From assembly GCF_022026155.1 (NCBI RefSeq), contig NZ_CP085041.1, positions 590,306 through 654,305 on the forward strand: a DNA stretch of 64,000 nt. Direction: 5' to 3'. The notes under the pieces were generated by a model. The model did no database searches. It was not told the DNA's origin and was given only the letters and a program-made list of their open reading frames with translations. Source of the DNA: Dissulfurimicrobium hydrothermale. Lineage in GTDB: Bacteria > Desulfobacterota > Dissulfuribacteria > Dissulfuribacterales > Sh68. A program made the position numbers and the translations under genes. Every line of letters begins with the position of its first letter. Within the stretch, counting starts at the first letter, position 1. Positions 25,634 to 34,104 of the stretch are shown here, piece by piece.

Positions 25634-26548
25634 ATGAATGAGTCGAGATCGCTCAAGTTTTTACTCATAATTTTGGTGTTGATTGGTCTGCTATTGCTAT
25701 TGCCAGGCTGTAAAAAAGAAGAGACCAATCTCAAATTTAACCACAAGCTGCACGTAATTGACAACCAGATGGCGTGTGCAACCTGCCATGCGTCAGGCGA
25801 AAAGGGAAAGCTGCAGAACCCAGGCATGGACAAGTGTTCCGAATGCCATGAAATAGATACTGACCATCCGTCTGAAAAGTGCCTTTTGTGCCATTCCGTA
25901 AAGAGCGCGGCCCACGATTACGAGGTGTCTGAGTCTGTACCGGAGAAACCGAAGAGCTATAAAGACCTCAAATTCAGCCATGAATATCATGAAGGTGTTG
26001 AATGTAATACGTGCCACAAGGGGATAGATAAACAGGATTCTCTCTCGCAAATAGAGTGGCCTGATATGTTTGTTTGCAAGAGGTGCCACAACGGGAAAGA
26101 GGCCCCGATCACCTGTGAGGTCTGCCATGAGAAGATCAGAAAGGATATAGCACCAGAGAGCCATCATGGCGACTGGACCATGCACCACGGCCTCGAGAGC
26201 CGTTTCGACAGGTCATGCCAGTTCTGTCATGAAAATCAGGAGCGCTTCTGTCAGGATTGCCACAGGACACAGAAGCCGAAGGATCATATATTCAATTGGA
26301 AGACGACGCAGCACGGCGAGGAGGCGACACATGACCGTCGTCTGTGCACGACTTGTCATACAGCAAGTTACTGTTCTGATTGTCACAGGTCAGAGCAGCC
26401 CATCTCGCACAGGCGTGCAGACTGGATGGCGCTCAGCCGAGAAAACGGCCATGCCGAGGAGGCGCGCCGCAATTTCAGGAGCTGCAATGTGTGTCACGAA
26501 ACAAGCGAGTGCATGAAGTGTCATCAGTCGATCATCTTGAGGAGATAG
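25634..26548 (+). CDS. 12-heme c-type cytochrome lipoprotein
   Basis: A 304-residue exported cytochrome. The N-terminus has a basic start, a long hydrophobic helix and LLPGCKK, a lipobox whose Cys26 would be lipidated. Twelve CXXCH heme-binding motifs can be counted: CATCH, CSECH, CLLCH, CNTCH, CKRCH, CEVCH, CQFCH, CQDCH, CTTCH, CSDCH, CNVCH and CMKCH. Many spare histidines can serve as distal ligands. The barrel gene ends 58 bp upstream and the octaheme cytochrome starts 65 bp downstream, so the three genes probably make one transmembrane electron path from periplasm to cell surface. Electron acceptor unknown. Confidence 0.9.
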   Translation: MNESRSLKFLLIILVLIGLLLLLPGCKKEETNLKFNHKLHVIDNQMACATCHASGEKGKLQNPGMDKCSECHEIDTDHPSEKCLLCHSVKSAAHDYEVSESVPEKPKSYKDLKFSHEYHEGVECNTCHKGIDKQDSLSQIEWPDMFVCKRCHNGKEAPITCEVCHEKIRKDIAPESHHGDWTMHHGLESRFDRSCQFCHENQERFCQDCHRTQKPKDHIFNWKTTQHGEEATHDRRLCTTCHTASYCSDCHRSEQPISHRRADWMALSRENGHAEEARRNFRSCNVCHETSECMKCHQSIILRR

Positions 26549-26613: not shown

Positions 26614-29600
26614 ATGTCTAACAAAATTACAAGGATTTCAAGATCAATCTTGTGGGTGATAGCAGCAGGTCTCATTATCCCGGCCCTGGCGTTCGCTCAC
26701 CCGGCGGTCCGACTCCTGGACGCCAACGGGATGCCTATAAAAGATCAGTTGAATCCGTCGGATACGGTGGTTGCCGCAAATGGTTCAGTTTATATGAGGG
26801 GTCCTGCCTACAGCCCGAAGCAGACATGTGGCAAGTGCCATGACTATCAGGCGATTACAAGGGCCTATCACTTCCGTGAAGGCGCTGGCGCCTACGGTCA
26901 GGACCTTAGCGACCACTGGAGCGCGAAAAACAAAGATAACCCCCTTTACCGCTATCTAGCCAATGCCTATGGGCATCTGATAAGCCCTGGGCAATTCGGC
27001 GCGTGGTGACCGCCGTCTTACCGCCAGTTGGCGGCTAAGTCGGAGCGTGGTGGATTAAAAAGCCCATTTACCTCAGAGGGCAAGAGATACTTTTTTGATG
27101 TCGGGACCGCTGATGAGATGGGGGTCTGTTACTCATGCCATCCAGGCGGTGGGCCTGCAGAGGGCATCGTTCAGGCAAACGGAACGGTTATTCCCTATAC
27201 GGATTCGACTCTCAAGCCTGTTCATACCTATGATAGGGATTTCTACGATTACAGCCCGTATGCCACTACAGAGGCATTGAATAGCCAGGCGTCAATCAGC
27301 GATACCATAGCTGCAATTGGTGCGCCCAAGGCGCACGACTGGCATCAGTCAGGCGTCATGGAGGCGGACTGCCTCCTATGTCATATCGATCCTCAGAGTC
27401 CATATGCACTGAAGGCTGCGGATGGGCTAAAGGCCCAGCCGTTCAGGCCTAGGCTTATGATCTTTGCATCCAGACAAAACGGTCAGGTGCAGAGCATCTC
27501 GCTCGGCATGCCGTTAAATTATGGGCTTTTTAATGAATCGGCCTTTTCCTATACCAACGATCCCCAGAGGATGTCCAGGCCGACGAAGATGTTGGCCCTT
27601 GACATGTTGCCGCCAGATGTCGTTGGGCAGATGATGAAGATGTGGACAGACGGGCTCAAACAAATAGAAAAAAGCGGGATAAGCCTTCCTTACGCCCTTT
27701 ACGGCCCGAATGTCAACAAGATATGGACATCAACCGGTATAAAAGGCGCCTATTGTCCAAACCCGGCAGGGCCTGCGGATGAGGCTGCCAGGCTTGCAAA
27801 CGCCGCTGGCGCCATAAACCAGCTCTTTTCTCAACTCCTTGGATTCATGCAGTCCAAAGGTCTTATCTCGTCAAGTGCCACCATGAACGACATGATGGCC
27901 CTATTTTTTAACGATTTTATATATGGTTACAAGATAAAGGACCAGATGGGCAACCTCCTTCCCATACCTGTTCCTTTAAGGGCGTATGAGCCAGGGAAAT
28001 TCTATACCGACTGGGATGACTGTAATGCCTCTGTAAGGGATTATGTGAGGGCCCCGCTTATCGAAGGTGAAGGCATTCCTTACTCAGGCAAGGTCGGCAT
28101 GGGCTGGGGGGCGGCCATGTATGCCGTGCAGAGGGCTATGCAGGGGGATAGCCGCTATATCACCCCTGCCGGGACCCCGGATGTGGCTGCAGTTATGGCC
28201 GATGTGCAAAAGGGTGTTATAAGTCAAAGTGCGATCCAGCCGGCCCTTCATGAGTATTTGCCCAACTTTTTCTATATGATGCCTACAGCGGGTTTAATGG
28301 GGCTTGATCTCAATCAGGACGGCGCGCCCCTTACTTATGTGCGTATTGACAAGAGCGGCGGGAGCTGGCAGGCGAAGGCGTATTGGAACACAGCAGACCT
28401 TGGGGATGGATATCTCCGCATAGACATGTTTGGAGGTCCTAAAGATATAGGCTCATACAAGTGGGTCAATATATGCGGCCAGTGCCATGTGATGACCAAA
28501 GATCACGGTAACAGCGAATGGAATTACGCCCGTCCCTACAACCTCGGGATGCCTGCCGACTGGGTCAAAAATGGCCAGTATGTCAATTTCACCAACGATA
28601 TAGAGGCGTCCGGTTATGATGTTCATATGTCATCAAAGAAGATGGGTTGCGGATCGTGTCATCTTAGGGCGGTCGGTACGGTAGAGGATAAGCATAATTT
28701 CTTGAAGGGTACCGATACCGCTCACATGGTCAGCAACGAGCTTGACAATAATCCGAAACCGAAGACATGCGAGTATTGTCACCTTTCGGGCGGTGATCCG
28801 CAGGCGCCTAATCCTACCGCCGCCCATGAGGAGAAATTCGGCGAAAATACAGGCCGTCACATGGCTGAGATCGCCTGCGAGACATGCCATGTGCCGTATA
28901 GAAGGACGTGGCGTTTCAGGACATTTGACGACACCATGGGATATTTCAGCAATTTTGACAACCGCATGGGTTACAATATACTCCCCGGCGGTGACGGCAA
29001 GATGGCTGCCTATCCGCCCGAATATGCCCTGTCCCCTGTCTATGGGACGTCTCCAGGGTACGGCATAGCGCACTTCAATATGCTATCACAACATATAGAC
29101 GCAAATGGTGGTGGCGTGGTGCCCATGGACTATGTCTCACAGATGGTGGACTACTTCAACATGAGCGGCTCAGCCGATCCAGGTCAAATTGTGAACGGCA
29201 TGCCTACGAATCCTGGCTTTGATTTCTGGCGTTATTTCTATGAGGCAAGCCTGAATCAGTACAAGGCCATGGGTGTCCCGTTGAACTATGACCCGGCCCA
29301 CGACAATGAGGTATTTCCGCCTCTATACTATGCAAACTCAAGAAACGGTTATCCGCAGATAGTGATTGGCAATCCGATTACTATCATGACATGGGTTGAC
29401 GCCAACCCGCAGCCGGATCACGATATGAGTGATCTGCCATACGGCGGGGCCAAGGTGCTCTATCTAAGGGAGATAAATGCAGCTATACAGGCTTATATCC
29501 CGCCGCTCCAGGTCGGGGCTGTTGATCCAAGGACGCTTGCAGGCATCCCGCCGAATGATCCCAACTGGGCAAGGAACCCAAATGTGGGCAAGATCATTCT

Positions 29601-30594
29601 AAAAGACAGCGGCTATGTCATATTCGACCATACCGGAGACATGTATCCCGATCTGTGGTGGGACGAGGATGTGCGCGCCATGCAGCAGGCACTAGTGAAG
29701 GTCCTGAAGGCAGAGGGCGAAACAGATCCCAAGCCGATCATCTTTGTGGCCGCCCATTATTTCTCCGATTCGCACGGGGTTCAGCCAAAGGAGAAGGCAT
29801 TGGGCGCAAGATCCTGCTTCGACTGTCATGGGGATTATACAAAAGATCCAGGTGCGCACAGGATTACCGACAGGATTATCACTTATGTGTCGTGGGCCCC
29901 GCCTTGGTTCAGGGATGATAATCGTGTCATGAAGTATGACCCGGCAAAGGGCATGGTCCCGGCCAACCCGAATGGCCTCTTCATAGTTGACGGCGAGGTG
30001 GCCTACATTCAGCCGCAGCAAGCCGACAACTTGAGCGTACTCGGCGCTAAGGCCCAAGACGTCTTGGCCCTTAGTAAACATCATGCAGAGGAGCTCTTCT
30101 ATATAACGAGCGAAGGCAGCGTTCGCGGTTATGATATAACCGAGATCAACGATCCATCGAAATTTACCCCGGATGAGCTGGCCGCAGAATACGCCAAACA
30201 GGTGGTAAATGGCCCTTGGTCGGACAAGCTCTATTTCTATATACCCGAAGATCTGAAGCCCGAGCTTTCAGAGTGCGGTTTTCAGCCGCAGGCCGAGTCT
30301 GTCTACCTCGACGGCATCGGCCTTGCCGATGCCTATGTGCTGAGGTTGGGGCTTAATACCGCGGAGAAAAAGGCCATGATCGTTAAACTGCCTTTCACTG
30401 GGGCACAGCCGGAGATCTGGACCAAGGTTGCAGGCGATACCGTATTCAGGAAAGACGCAAGCGCAGCTATTGTAGGGTATTCGAGTGCCTATGTAGTAGC
30501 GAAGGTCAATCATCCTGGCGAATTTGTCTGTGTTGAACATGGCCTTGTCTCAGGCGCTAACTCCGATCTCTGGAAACCATTCATAAAGAAATAG
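26614..30594 (+). CDS. Octaheme c-type cytochrome, predicted selenoprotein (UGA codon 132 read as Sec)
   Basis: Predicted product 1326 residues. A signal peptide (SRSILWVIAAGLIIPALAFA) is followed by the first heme motif CGKCH, then a TGA at 27007-27009 directly after ...GQFGAW. The same frame stays open for 1194 further codons with seven more motifs: CYSCH, CLLCH, CGQCH, CGSCH, CEYCH, CETCH, CFDCH. The downstream part has no signal peptide and only a TTG within the hairpin as start, yet needs export for heme attachment, so one protein with selenocysteine at 132 fits best. A SECIS-like hairpin lies at 27017-27039. GGGAGG precedes the ATG. I recall that Geobacter ExtKL cytochromes are similarly split; alignment would settle it. 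A nonsense mutation is the alternative. Confidence 0.8.
27017..27039 (+). promoter_or_regulatory. Predicted bacterial SECIS element, octaheme cytochrome
   Basis: CTTA (27017-27020) pairs with TAAG (27036-27039), CCGCC (27021-27025) pairs with GGCGG (27030-27034), C27035 is bulged and the loop is AGTT (27026-27029). Nine base pairs in all, with G as the second loop base. Exactly 16 nt separate the TGA from the loop, within the 16-37 range known for bacterial SECIS elements. Confidence 0.75.
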
Positions 30595-32253: not shown

Positions 32254-34104
32254 TTATCTTTCAAGACCTTGCAAAAAGATCTTGCCTTTTTCGCAGACAG
32301 GCGGGGCATGCAGCGGGGTCCAATTTCGCATTACAGGGTCGCTGAAGTCTTTGTGGCAATTCAAGCACAGGCCTACATATAGTATTCTTGTAATCTCGTT
32401 TCTGTTAAAGGGTCGCAGATTCGGTCTTGATGTATGAACCAACGGCCTTCCGGCAAGGCCCACGAAGGCATCTAGGGGGTGACTGATACCGCCTGATGGT
32501 GCGGATGACAAGGCAGGGCGGAAGCCCCATGTGCCATTTCGGCGGATGAAAAGATTTCCCTCGCCGAGCCCTAGTGCCCTTGGGTCTTGGTGGCATTCCT
32601 TGCAGGTCCTTGCCTTTTTCTGTGTAGTATGCGGGTCCATCCACGAAATGGTGAGTCTTGTGAAGTCCTTTTTCCATTTCCCCCTTTCGTCCAGAAAGGA
32701 TGCGAAATCTTGTCATCCAGGCACCAGGATCACCACCTTGTCCTGGTCTGTACCATCCTTCTTTTCTTCCATTATGCCAAGAGACGGTGCGTCAAGGCGC
32801 ATGAAGCCCTTGAACTCCTGCCATAGACCAGGGGTATTTTTATTTACTACTTTGTCAAGCTGTGGTTTTGCCTTCTCATTTCTCACATGGCATCCAAAGC
32901 ACTGAGGCACCCATGTGCTGTGGCAGGCCTGACATGAAAGGCGCCGGTGAACCGGGTGGTTGCACGCCGTCTGGTCAGGATTTTTTAAAGGATGGAGCTT
33001 TTTGTCATTTTTGCCTAACAGGAAAAAACGGCCATCTTTGGACTCGATGTTCAGTCTGGGATACAGGGGGATCTTGTCACCCTTTGGGTATAGTTTTTCA
33101 TCATCGGATTTATTGATTTTGTACATATATTCCAGGGCCTTTTCGTCCCCGTGACACAGAGAGCAATTTATCTCAAGCTGGTACTCCATGTGCGGCCTCT
33201 GCACACCGTCTCCCATGGTCTCTCTCTGTGTGTGGCAGTCGATGCAGATAAGACCTGCCTTGTGATGGACGTCTTCAGGGAGATCTTGATAAAAACGGCC
33301 GTCTTCCAGGACTTTGTTGTTTGGATGTCCTGCCTCAAGAGGGGCGCCGTAGCCGTCGGTTTCATAAATGCCCTGATATGAAAGCCCGATCCGCCCGCTG
33401 CGGTTGTGGCAACGCACACAGTTTTCCATGGGGATGGACCTGGTTATATATGGGTGTTCCTGTCCCTTTTTTATATCTTTCGGCCCGGGCACAAGGTGAC
33501 AGGCCGTGCACCCTCCACCTTTGTGTTTCAGAAAATAGGGCAGGGTTCTTCTTTCAACCCAGAGATGGCAGCTCCCGCACAGCTTTCTGAAGTAATCGGT
33601 CGCAGGTGAGTCGAACCCGGTTTTTTTGAGATATTCTACGGTTATCGCCTCGTTGTGGTTTTTGGTCTCGCCCCAATAGTACCTAAGTGTGCTTATGATC
33701 CCGCGGTTTGTGGCCATCAATGAATTCTTGACCCAGGCGGCCTCCCGCGGGTGGCAGCCCTCTTGTCCGCAGGTCTCTCCGACGTATTTCAACTCGCCGG
33801 GGTTTAGGACCATGCCCCTATGGGCATCGAATACGTCGCCTGAAAGTGGATTACCCATATGGCATACGGAACAACCAAGAACCTCCCGACCATGCGCCTT
33901 ATCAGGTGTTTCCTTGTGGCAGCTGAGGCACATTTCCACCCTGCCGCCTGAAGTGCGGCTGACGGTCACCGCCTTCCTTGGGATATCTTTTCCACCCATT
34001 TTCTTTTCTGGGCGTGCAAGTGCTGCAAGGCCGAGGATGATCAAGACCACGGAAAGGGTGGTAATGCACACAAAGAATGTCTTTTGAGACAGGTTGCGGC
34101 ACAT
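32254..34104 (-). CDS. 12-heme c-type cytochrome, predicted selenoprotein (UGA codon 464 read as Sec)
   Basis: Predicted product 616 residues. An N-terminal membrane anchor or signal (TFFVCITTLSVVLIILGLAAL) precedes CLSCH, CSVCH, the variant CGQEGCH (CX4CH), CGSCH, CTACH, CVRCH, CIDCH, CSLCH, CQACH and CFGCH. After ...DKVVILVPG a TGA (32715-32713) interrupts, but the frame continues QDFASFLDERGKWKKDF and includes CKECH and CLNCH before a normal stop. The 3' part has no ribosome site or signal peptide, so a single protein with Sec464 is favoured. A SECIS-like hairpin starts 19 nt after the TGA. No Shine-Dalgarno is seen before ATG 34104, which lies just behind the pyrophosphatase terminator. 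Redox function inferred from hemes. Confidence 0.78.
32683..32699 (-). promoter_or_regulatory. Predicted bacterial SECIS element, 12-heme cytochrome
   Basis: On the minus strand CCTTTC (32699-32694) pairs with GAAAGG (32688-32683), loop TGGAC, with a further T-G pair at the base. G is the second loop base and the loop begins 19 nt after the in-frame TGA. These are the expected features of a bacterial SECIS. Confidence 0.68.

Follow-up and report, generated by a model that had tools for sequence, protein, structure and literature searches.

A conserved in-frame UGA, predicted to encode selenocysteine, in a twelve-heme ExtM-like cytochrome of Dissulfurimicrobium hydrothermale

A cytochrome gene divided by an in-frame UGA

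The cytochrome gene lies on the minus strand of the window, by which we mean the whole 64-kb stretch of DNA analysed here, and extends from position 34104 to 32254. Open reading frame (ORF) analysis shows 463 codons (32716-34104), a TGA (32715-32713) and 152 further codons in the same frame that end in a TAA (32254-32712). This is the only in-frame TGA in the gene. It separates ten heme-binding motifs, nine of the CXXCH type and one CX4CH motif (CGQEGCH), from two more, CKECH (32604-32590) and CLNCH (32367-32353), an arrangement that had been described in an earlier note on this DNA. Read through the TGA, the gene encodes an ExtM-like c-type cytochrome of 616 residues with eleven CXXCH motifs and CGQEGCH, twelve in all. 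The predicted export signal or anchor is a hydrophobic N-terminal segment of about 30 residues, MCRNLSQKTFFVCITTLSVVLIILGLAALA (34015-34104). A fold model calculated from two sequences has a mean pLDDT of 32.4; its only fairly confident stretch contains a helix at residues 7-29, within this segment.

The 3′ part has no hydrophobic start of its own in the window sequence. Its first in-frame ATG, at 32640, is located 24 codons past the TGA within the conserved stretch SWMDPHTT, and no ribosome site is visible before it in the window. The earlier note's statement that the 3′ part lacks a signal peptide and a ribosome site thus agrees with the window sequence, in which a separate start with an export signal was not found.

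A terminator-like site is present between the upstream gene and the cytochrome gene (34148-34127), and the same scan gave no more promoter-like sites than expected. The neighbouring genes in the window are presumably a DHH-type phosphatase and a signal-peptidase-like gene. No Rfam family matched the 64-kb window, and no plasmid or phage matched the cytochrome. A sequence search of the PDB returned a single weak local match, to cytochrome c-552 (E 0.0058).

Cysteine and selenocysteine exchange at codon 464

A search of 60 relatives identified orthologues in 40 genomes, including our own, with 52-100% identity. The orthologue of G007 ends at a contig edge 5′ of the site, leaving 39 that cover it. 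TGA is found at exactly codon 464 in 37 of these, and the remaining two (L036, L041) have the cysteine codon TGT. The residues at the site read VPG-U-QD, with PGUE in L047. L050, a further sequence from another collection, contains the TGA as well; near the site it does not differ from L023.

Beyond the order, 77 of the 395 genomes of the phylum were matched at E 1e-40, and for those outside the order 33 loci (one of them a duplicate) were read at the site. We also read 12 loci from the search of the 395 genomes with the ExtM cut-off, one additional locus and six ExtM-like paralogues from the 60 relatives; lower-scoring matches were otherwise left out. The TGA recurs in 13 genomes outside the order, all with PGUQ. 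The next-closest homologues contain TPGCQD (11 rows) and farther ones SPCQ, APCQ or TPCQ (7 rows). All six paralogues have PGCQ, and all eight bona fide ExtM proteins, which score above the family cut-off, have TPGCQ with TGC or TGT as the cysteine codon. The earlier note had asked whether homologues carry Cys, Sec or a stop at position 464. They exchange Cys and Sec, and neither TAA nor TAG occurs at the site in any homologue read. The one other stop, a TAA in G327, lies elsewhere in that gene, which has Cys at the site.

All 76 aligned homologues have either Cys or Sec at this residue, as does every row with a located site. A tree of these 76 sequences, built by a quick method, contains 49 Sec and 27 Cys tips and requires 3 changes, compared with an average of 22.3 when the labels are shuffled. 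Near copies or repeats (L044, L050, L180), a remote homologue with no recognisable site motif (L066) and a member of another cytochrome family (L067) were omitted from the tree. With Cys outgroups, the 3 changes in the inferred tree are one gain of Sec and two reversions. Sec would accordingly have replaced the family-invariant Cys once, in the ancestor of the clade, and reverted twice later.

A SECIS-type hairpin downstream of the UGA

A candidate SECIS-type hairpin, CCTTTC-TGGAC-GAAAGG, is found at 32699-32683 on the minus strand. Its 6-bp stem begins 14 nt past the TGA, a seventh pair (T16-G34) can be added, and the TGGAC loop follows after 19 nt, all as the earlier note had described. Across 35 distinct sequences, the 6-bp stem has standard pairs in 191 of its 210 base-pair cells. 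None of 2000 draws reached this count in either of two codon-based null models: the maximum was 189 when synonymous codons were permuted within columns and 165 when codons were redrawn from each gene's own usage. The same stem also ranked first, both by count and by z, when every 6-bp stem with a loop of 3-8 nt was scanned across the first 60 nt (202 of 222 cells in 37 sequences); the highest count for any stem in 400 null sets was 185. The pairing of positions 21 and 29 has changed on both sides, being T-A in 24 and C-G in 12 of 38 sequences; it couples the synonymous third base of a Phe codon (TTT/TTC) with a Glu or Gly, the next residue but two. Of the 38 loops, 35 read TGGAY, and the outermost pair is kept in just 26 of 38. 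Both Cys orthologues are left with three of the six stem pairs, and the paralogues with one to three.

The earlier note had proposed folding the RNA of this region. The hairpin sequence is present as described, but taken alone it is not unusually stable: single-sequence folding of the window's own hairpin gave z -0.77 (38 nt) and -1.81 (51 nt). The case for the hairpin is therefore comparative. In f39 and f72 relatives, the hairpin differs in both shape and position.

Selenocysteine machinery and a second tRNA/SelB pair

The genome of 2.03 Mb, assembled as one contig, encodes a tRNA-Sec with anticodon UCA (74.4 bits) and the selenocysteine genes selA (587 bits), selB (374.7 bits) and selD (360 bits). 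The selD gene (G000:C1:578294-579217, L182), about 11-12 kb before the window, itself contains an in-frame UGA, with the active site ASGUASK. The UGA-bearing SelD is an internal positive control for Sec decoding in this genome.

Among 12 further genomes, tRNA-Sec scored above the cut-off in 11. The exception is G014, a genome with 90% completeness that has the Cys form of the cytochrome (L041); tRNA-Sec was not found there, yet its other cytochrome (L082) keeps both the UGA and the hairpin sequence. This assembly is probably incomplete. G010, the other genome with a Cys form, has retained tRNA-Sec. A TGA noticed inside the selB gene of G014 was dismissed, as it is the ordinary stop of that gene. 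The closest relative contains two tRNA-Sec(UCA) genes on separate contigs (G001:C134:5994-6087 and G001:C128:686-779; L189, L196).

A second SelB (297 bits) is encoded in our genome directly after a tRNA-Sec-like gene with anticodon GCA. This tRNA-Cys(GCA) with tRNA-Sec-like architecture and the second SelB occupy G000:C1:1461214-1463288 (L002, L010, L018). We take the genes ahead of the pair to be 2-hydroxyacyl-CoA-dehydratase-like, and the pair itself to match the selC*/selB* tRNA-Cys pair that Mukai and co-workers reportedly described in 2017. A close selB* homologue together with a GCA tRNA is present in 4 of the 60 genomes (our own, G005, G006 and G031).

Readings of the in-frame UGA

The NF040943 (ExtM) profile runs across the TGA as a single uninterrupted alignment that covers residues 51-593 (E 1.8e-82). 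For six orthologue pairs, pN/pS was determined in three segments: the portion upstream of the UGA, the 24 codons that separate it from the next Met, and about 110 codons beyond. Comparing the window with its closest relative gave 0.23, 0.21 and 0.23, indicating the same purifying selection downstream as upstream; the decay of the 3′ region in relatives that the earlier note had envisaged as counter-evidence was not found. The ratios before and after the UGA are similar in five of the six pairs, and the pair L054/L055 is looser after it (0.38 vs 0.12). The 24 intervening codons are 79-96% identical at the protein level in the six pairs.

These observations bear on three other readings of the TGA. 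A nonsense mutation would leave a truncated 10-heme cytochrome with a decaying 3′ part; the codon is an ordinary stop, and the 463-residue part alone would make an exported multiheme protein. We nevertheless regard truncation as extremely improbable, in view of the same TGA in nearly all covering orthologues and in 13 genomes of other orders, the similar pN/pS on either side and the homologues read, none with TAA or TAG at the site. The earlier note had judged chance nonsense mutation unlikely, and both the retention of TGA at this codon and a stem above the codon-preserving nulls bear this out. Two separate proteins, one ending at the UGA and one restarting at ATG 32640, would be in keeping with the in-frame ATG 24 codons downstream. 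However, re-initiation would leave unexplained why these 24 codons show the same conservation as the rest, and the Cys homologues form one continuous frame. Heme attachment in c-type cytochrome maturation needs export, and the 3′ part contains two heme motifs while having no export signal in the window. We regard a restart at this ATG as extremely improbable as well.

The UGA might instead be decoded as Cys by a second tRNA-Sec-like tRNA with its own SelB, an idea that draws on the second SelB beside a tRNA-Sec-like gene in our genome. The accessible text of one study also views selC*-type tRNAs with UCA anticodon from other delta-proteobacteria as reading opal codons as Cys (PMC7609411). The selC*-like tRNA here has the anticodon GCA, so it should read UGC/UGU and not UGA. 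The selB*/GCA tRNA pair is moreover confined to four of the 60 genomes searched, against 37 with the UGA, and a UCA tRNA-Sec accompanies 11 of the 12 further genomes. We consider decoding as Cys very improbable. A code in which TGA specifies Trp was also tried and rejected, on two grounds. Homologues without UGA at the site always have Cys there, and TGA ends 19 of the 44 ATG-initiated ORFs of 200 aa or more in the window, which are mechanical ORFs and not all genes.

The reading of the in-frame TGA as Sec put forward in the earlier note is thus supported by conservation, Cys/Sec exchange, the comparative hairpin and the machinery genes. On these sequence comparisons, the product of the locus is very probably a single exported c-type cytochrome with 12 hemes, a member of the ExtM superfamily that has selenocysteine at residue 464. 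UGA 464 would be decoded by tRNA-Sec(UCA), delivered by the main SelB of the genome, and the hairpin 14 nt downstream would guide the insertion; both genes are present in the genome, and their part in decoding is suggested by the comparative evidence. The full chain is apparently one protein only if the internal UGA is read as Sec. Where UGA is taken as a stop, annotation splits the gene in two, and the protein has therefore probably been overlooked in this lineage.

Relationship to ExtM and to known selenocysteine cytochromes

The best profile match of the read-through protein is to ExtM (NF040943), at 277.6 bits. This is below the family cut-off of 800 bits, which is exceeded in 8 of the 395 genomes of the phylum. 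By sequence, the protein is a remote relative of ExtM. In Geobacter, ExtM is a 12-heme cytochrome of the extHIJKLMNOPQS cluster, encoded alongside a Rieske protein (ExtO) and a cytochrome b (ExtP), according to the accessible text of the source (PMC5877670). Our protein shares with it the twelve hemes, an alignment over nearly the whole mature protein that includes the UGA site, the family-wide PG-Cys-Q context, and probable Rieske and cytochrome b partners. It differs in its lower score, in having Sec in place of Cys and in the lack of an ext cluster around the gene; relatives show just Rieske and cytochrome b genes beside it.

Selenocysteine has been proposed in multiheme cytochromes before. 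ExtKL, a five-heme protein of the same ext cluster, is an earlier proposed Sec cytochrome in the accessible text of that source (PMC5877670). Like our protein, it is a multiheme c-type cytochrome with an in-frame UGA, but it has five hemes and belongs to a different family: the ExtKL profile (NF040886) did not match the read-through protein at E 0.01. Elsewhere in our genome, a sub-threshold ExtKL match (36.4 bits) has no internal stop. The accessible part of a 2026 review of prokaryotic selenoproteins lists 119 families, including ExtKL and the octaheme cytochrome of the tetrathionate reductase family, TIGR04315 (PMC13188914). The latter shares with our protein the occurrence of Sec in a multiheme cytochrome, whereas the 12-heme protein gave no match to it.

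An ExtM-type selenoprotein is absent from the table of 119 families, as far as the accessible part of the review extends (PMC13188914). Nor did we find a report of an ExtM-type Sec cytochrome in the literature searched, including the accessible text of PMC5877670, PMC9312934, PMC7463578 and PMC8318568; unpublished annotation may exist. The earlier note knew of no selenoprotein with this domain layout. That claim holds in that the review table contains no ExtM-type entry, and requires correction in that ExtKL and TIGR04315 are precedents for Sec in a multiheme cytochrome and the ExtM family has this same layout. Codon 464 is, on comparative grounds, a real and conserved Sec codon, and the predicted protein extends a known cytochrome superfamily by a new branch that bears Sec. 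It apparently represents an unlisted, order-wide selenoprotein family with Sec on an otherwise invariant Cys.

Genomic association with Rieske and cytochrome b genes

In nine genomes of several families, the gene stands immediately after those for a Rieske protein and a cytochrome b; one genome belongs to the same order (G004) and eight to others (G305, G413, G343, G395, G243, G285, G196 and G073). A partial gene adjoins the pair in G007, and in G109 and G265 a cytochrome b is present, with the examined flank ending inside it. No such pair was found within the flanks of 4.5-6 kb on each side of L168. Our genome contains a Rieske/cytochrome b pair that is unlinked to the cytochrome (near C1:983.1-984.4 kb). 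Overall, a cytochrome b homologue was found in 44 of the 47 genomes searched, weakly in G046.

The adjacency in relatives, together with the occurrence of ExtM alongside ExtO and ExtP in Geobacter, leads us to infer a quinol-oxidising complex with a dodecaheme exit. The gene order of the relatives makes it fairly likely that the cytochrome serves a quinol-oxidising Rieske/cytochrome b complex as its dodecaheme arm, a high-capacity periplasmic electron wire. Alternatively, the Sec cytochrome could act outside such a complex, in a pathway of selenite, tellurite or extracellular electron transfer. The best profile, ExtM, is named after selenite/tellurite reduction, and the gene is unlinked to the pair in our own genome; contig numbers indicate the same for most genomes of the order. 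Against this stand the gene order in the nine relatives, the widespread cytochrome b homologue and the clustering of ExtM itself with ExtO and ExtP, as given in the accessible text of the source (PMC5877670). We consider such a separate pathway rather unlikely. As an arm of the quinol-oxidising complex, the 12-heme cytochrome would serve as its periplasmic electron wire. Sec, at a position where a large cytochrome family otherwise has an invariant Cys, would then be placed in a respiratory chain and probably in a respiratory complex.

A possible role of residue 464 at a heme

Across the 76 homologues, eight conserved residues outside the heme motifs are candidate ligands for the twelve hemes, besides residue 464: H71, H95, M130, H217, H280, M297, H386 and H492. 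At M130, M297 and H386, Met and His are swapped in paralogues, as axial ligands would be. Residue 464, Cys or Sec throughout, is as invariant as the heme motifs. This conservation suggests, with about even confidence, that Sec464 is located at a heme, and a Cys/Sec-ligated or Sec-adjacent heme among the twelve is plausible. There, it could be an axial ligand, or it could act in redox chemistry or chalcogen binding, and so tune or gate the flow of electrons. The more specific proposal that Sec464 provides the selenolate axial ligand (or a catalytic selenol) of one c-type heme in the dodecaheme subunit of the quinol-oxidising complex is doubtful at present. If Sec464 is a selenolate ligand, an energy-conserving respiratory complex would have an electron exit tuned by selenium. 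The orthologues offer matched natural Sec/Cys pairs for asking what selenium does beside a heme.

Other cytochromes in the window

A second TGA cytochrome is found on the plus strand (26614-30594), with its TGA at 27007-27009 and 1326 residues when read through. The earlier note had counted two independent events of this kind in nearby cytochrome genes, and the second is indeed real; the genes are 1.7 kb and the TGAs 5.7 kb apart. The protein matches TIGR04315 weakly (40.4 bits, cut-off 375). Its site is conserved as GAW-U-PPSYRQ in the 23 loci read, and a Cys homologue (L096) has GSWCPVSFRQ. Past its UGA (around TCTTACCGCCAGTTGGCGGCTAAGA) the sequence hardly varies, and it appears capable of folding into a strong hairpin. 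Directly before this gene, at 25634-26548 (+), lies another cytochrome gene; a simple count gives it 12 CXXCH motifs, its start resembles that of a lipoprotein, and its best NCBIfam match is QrcA, below the cut-off.
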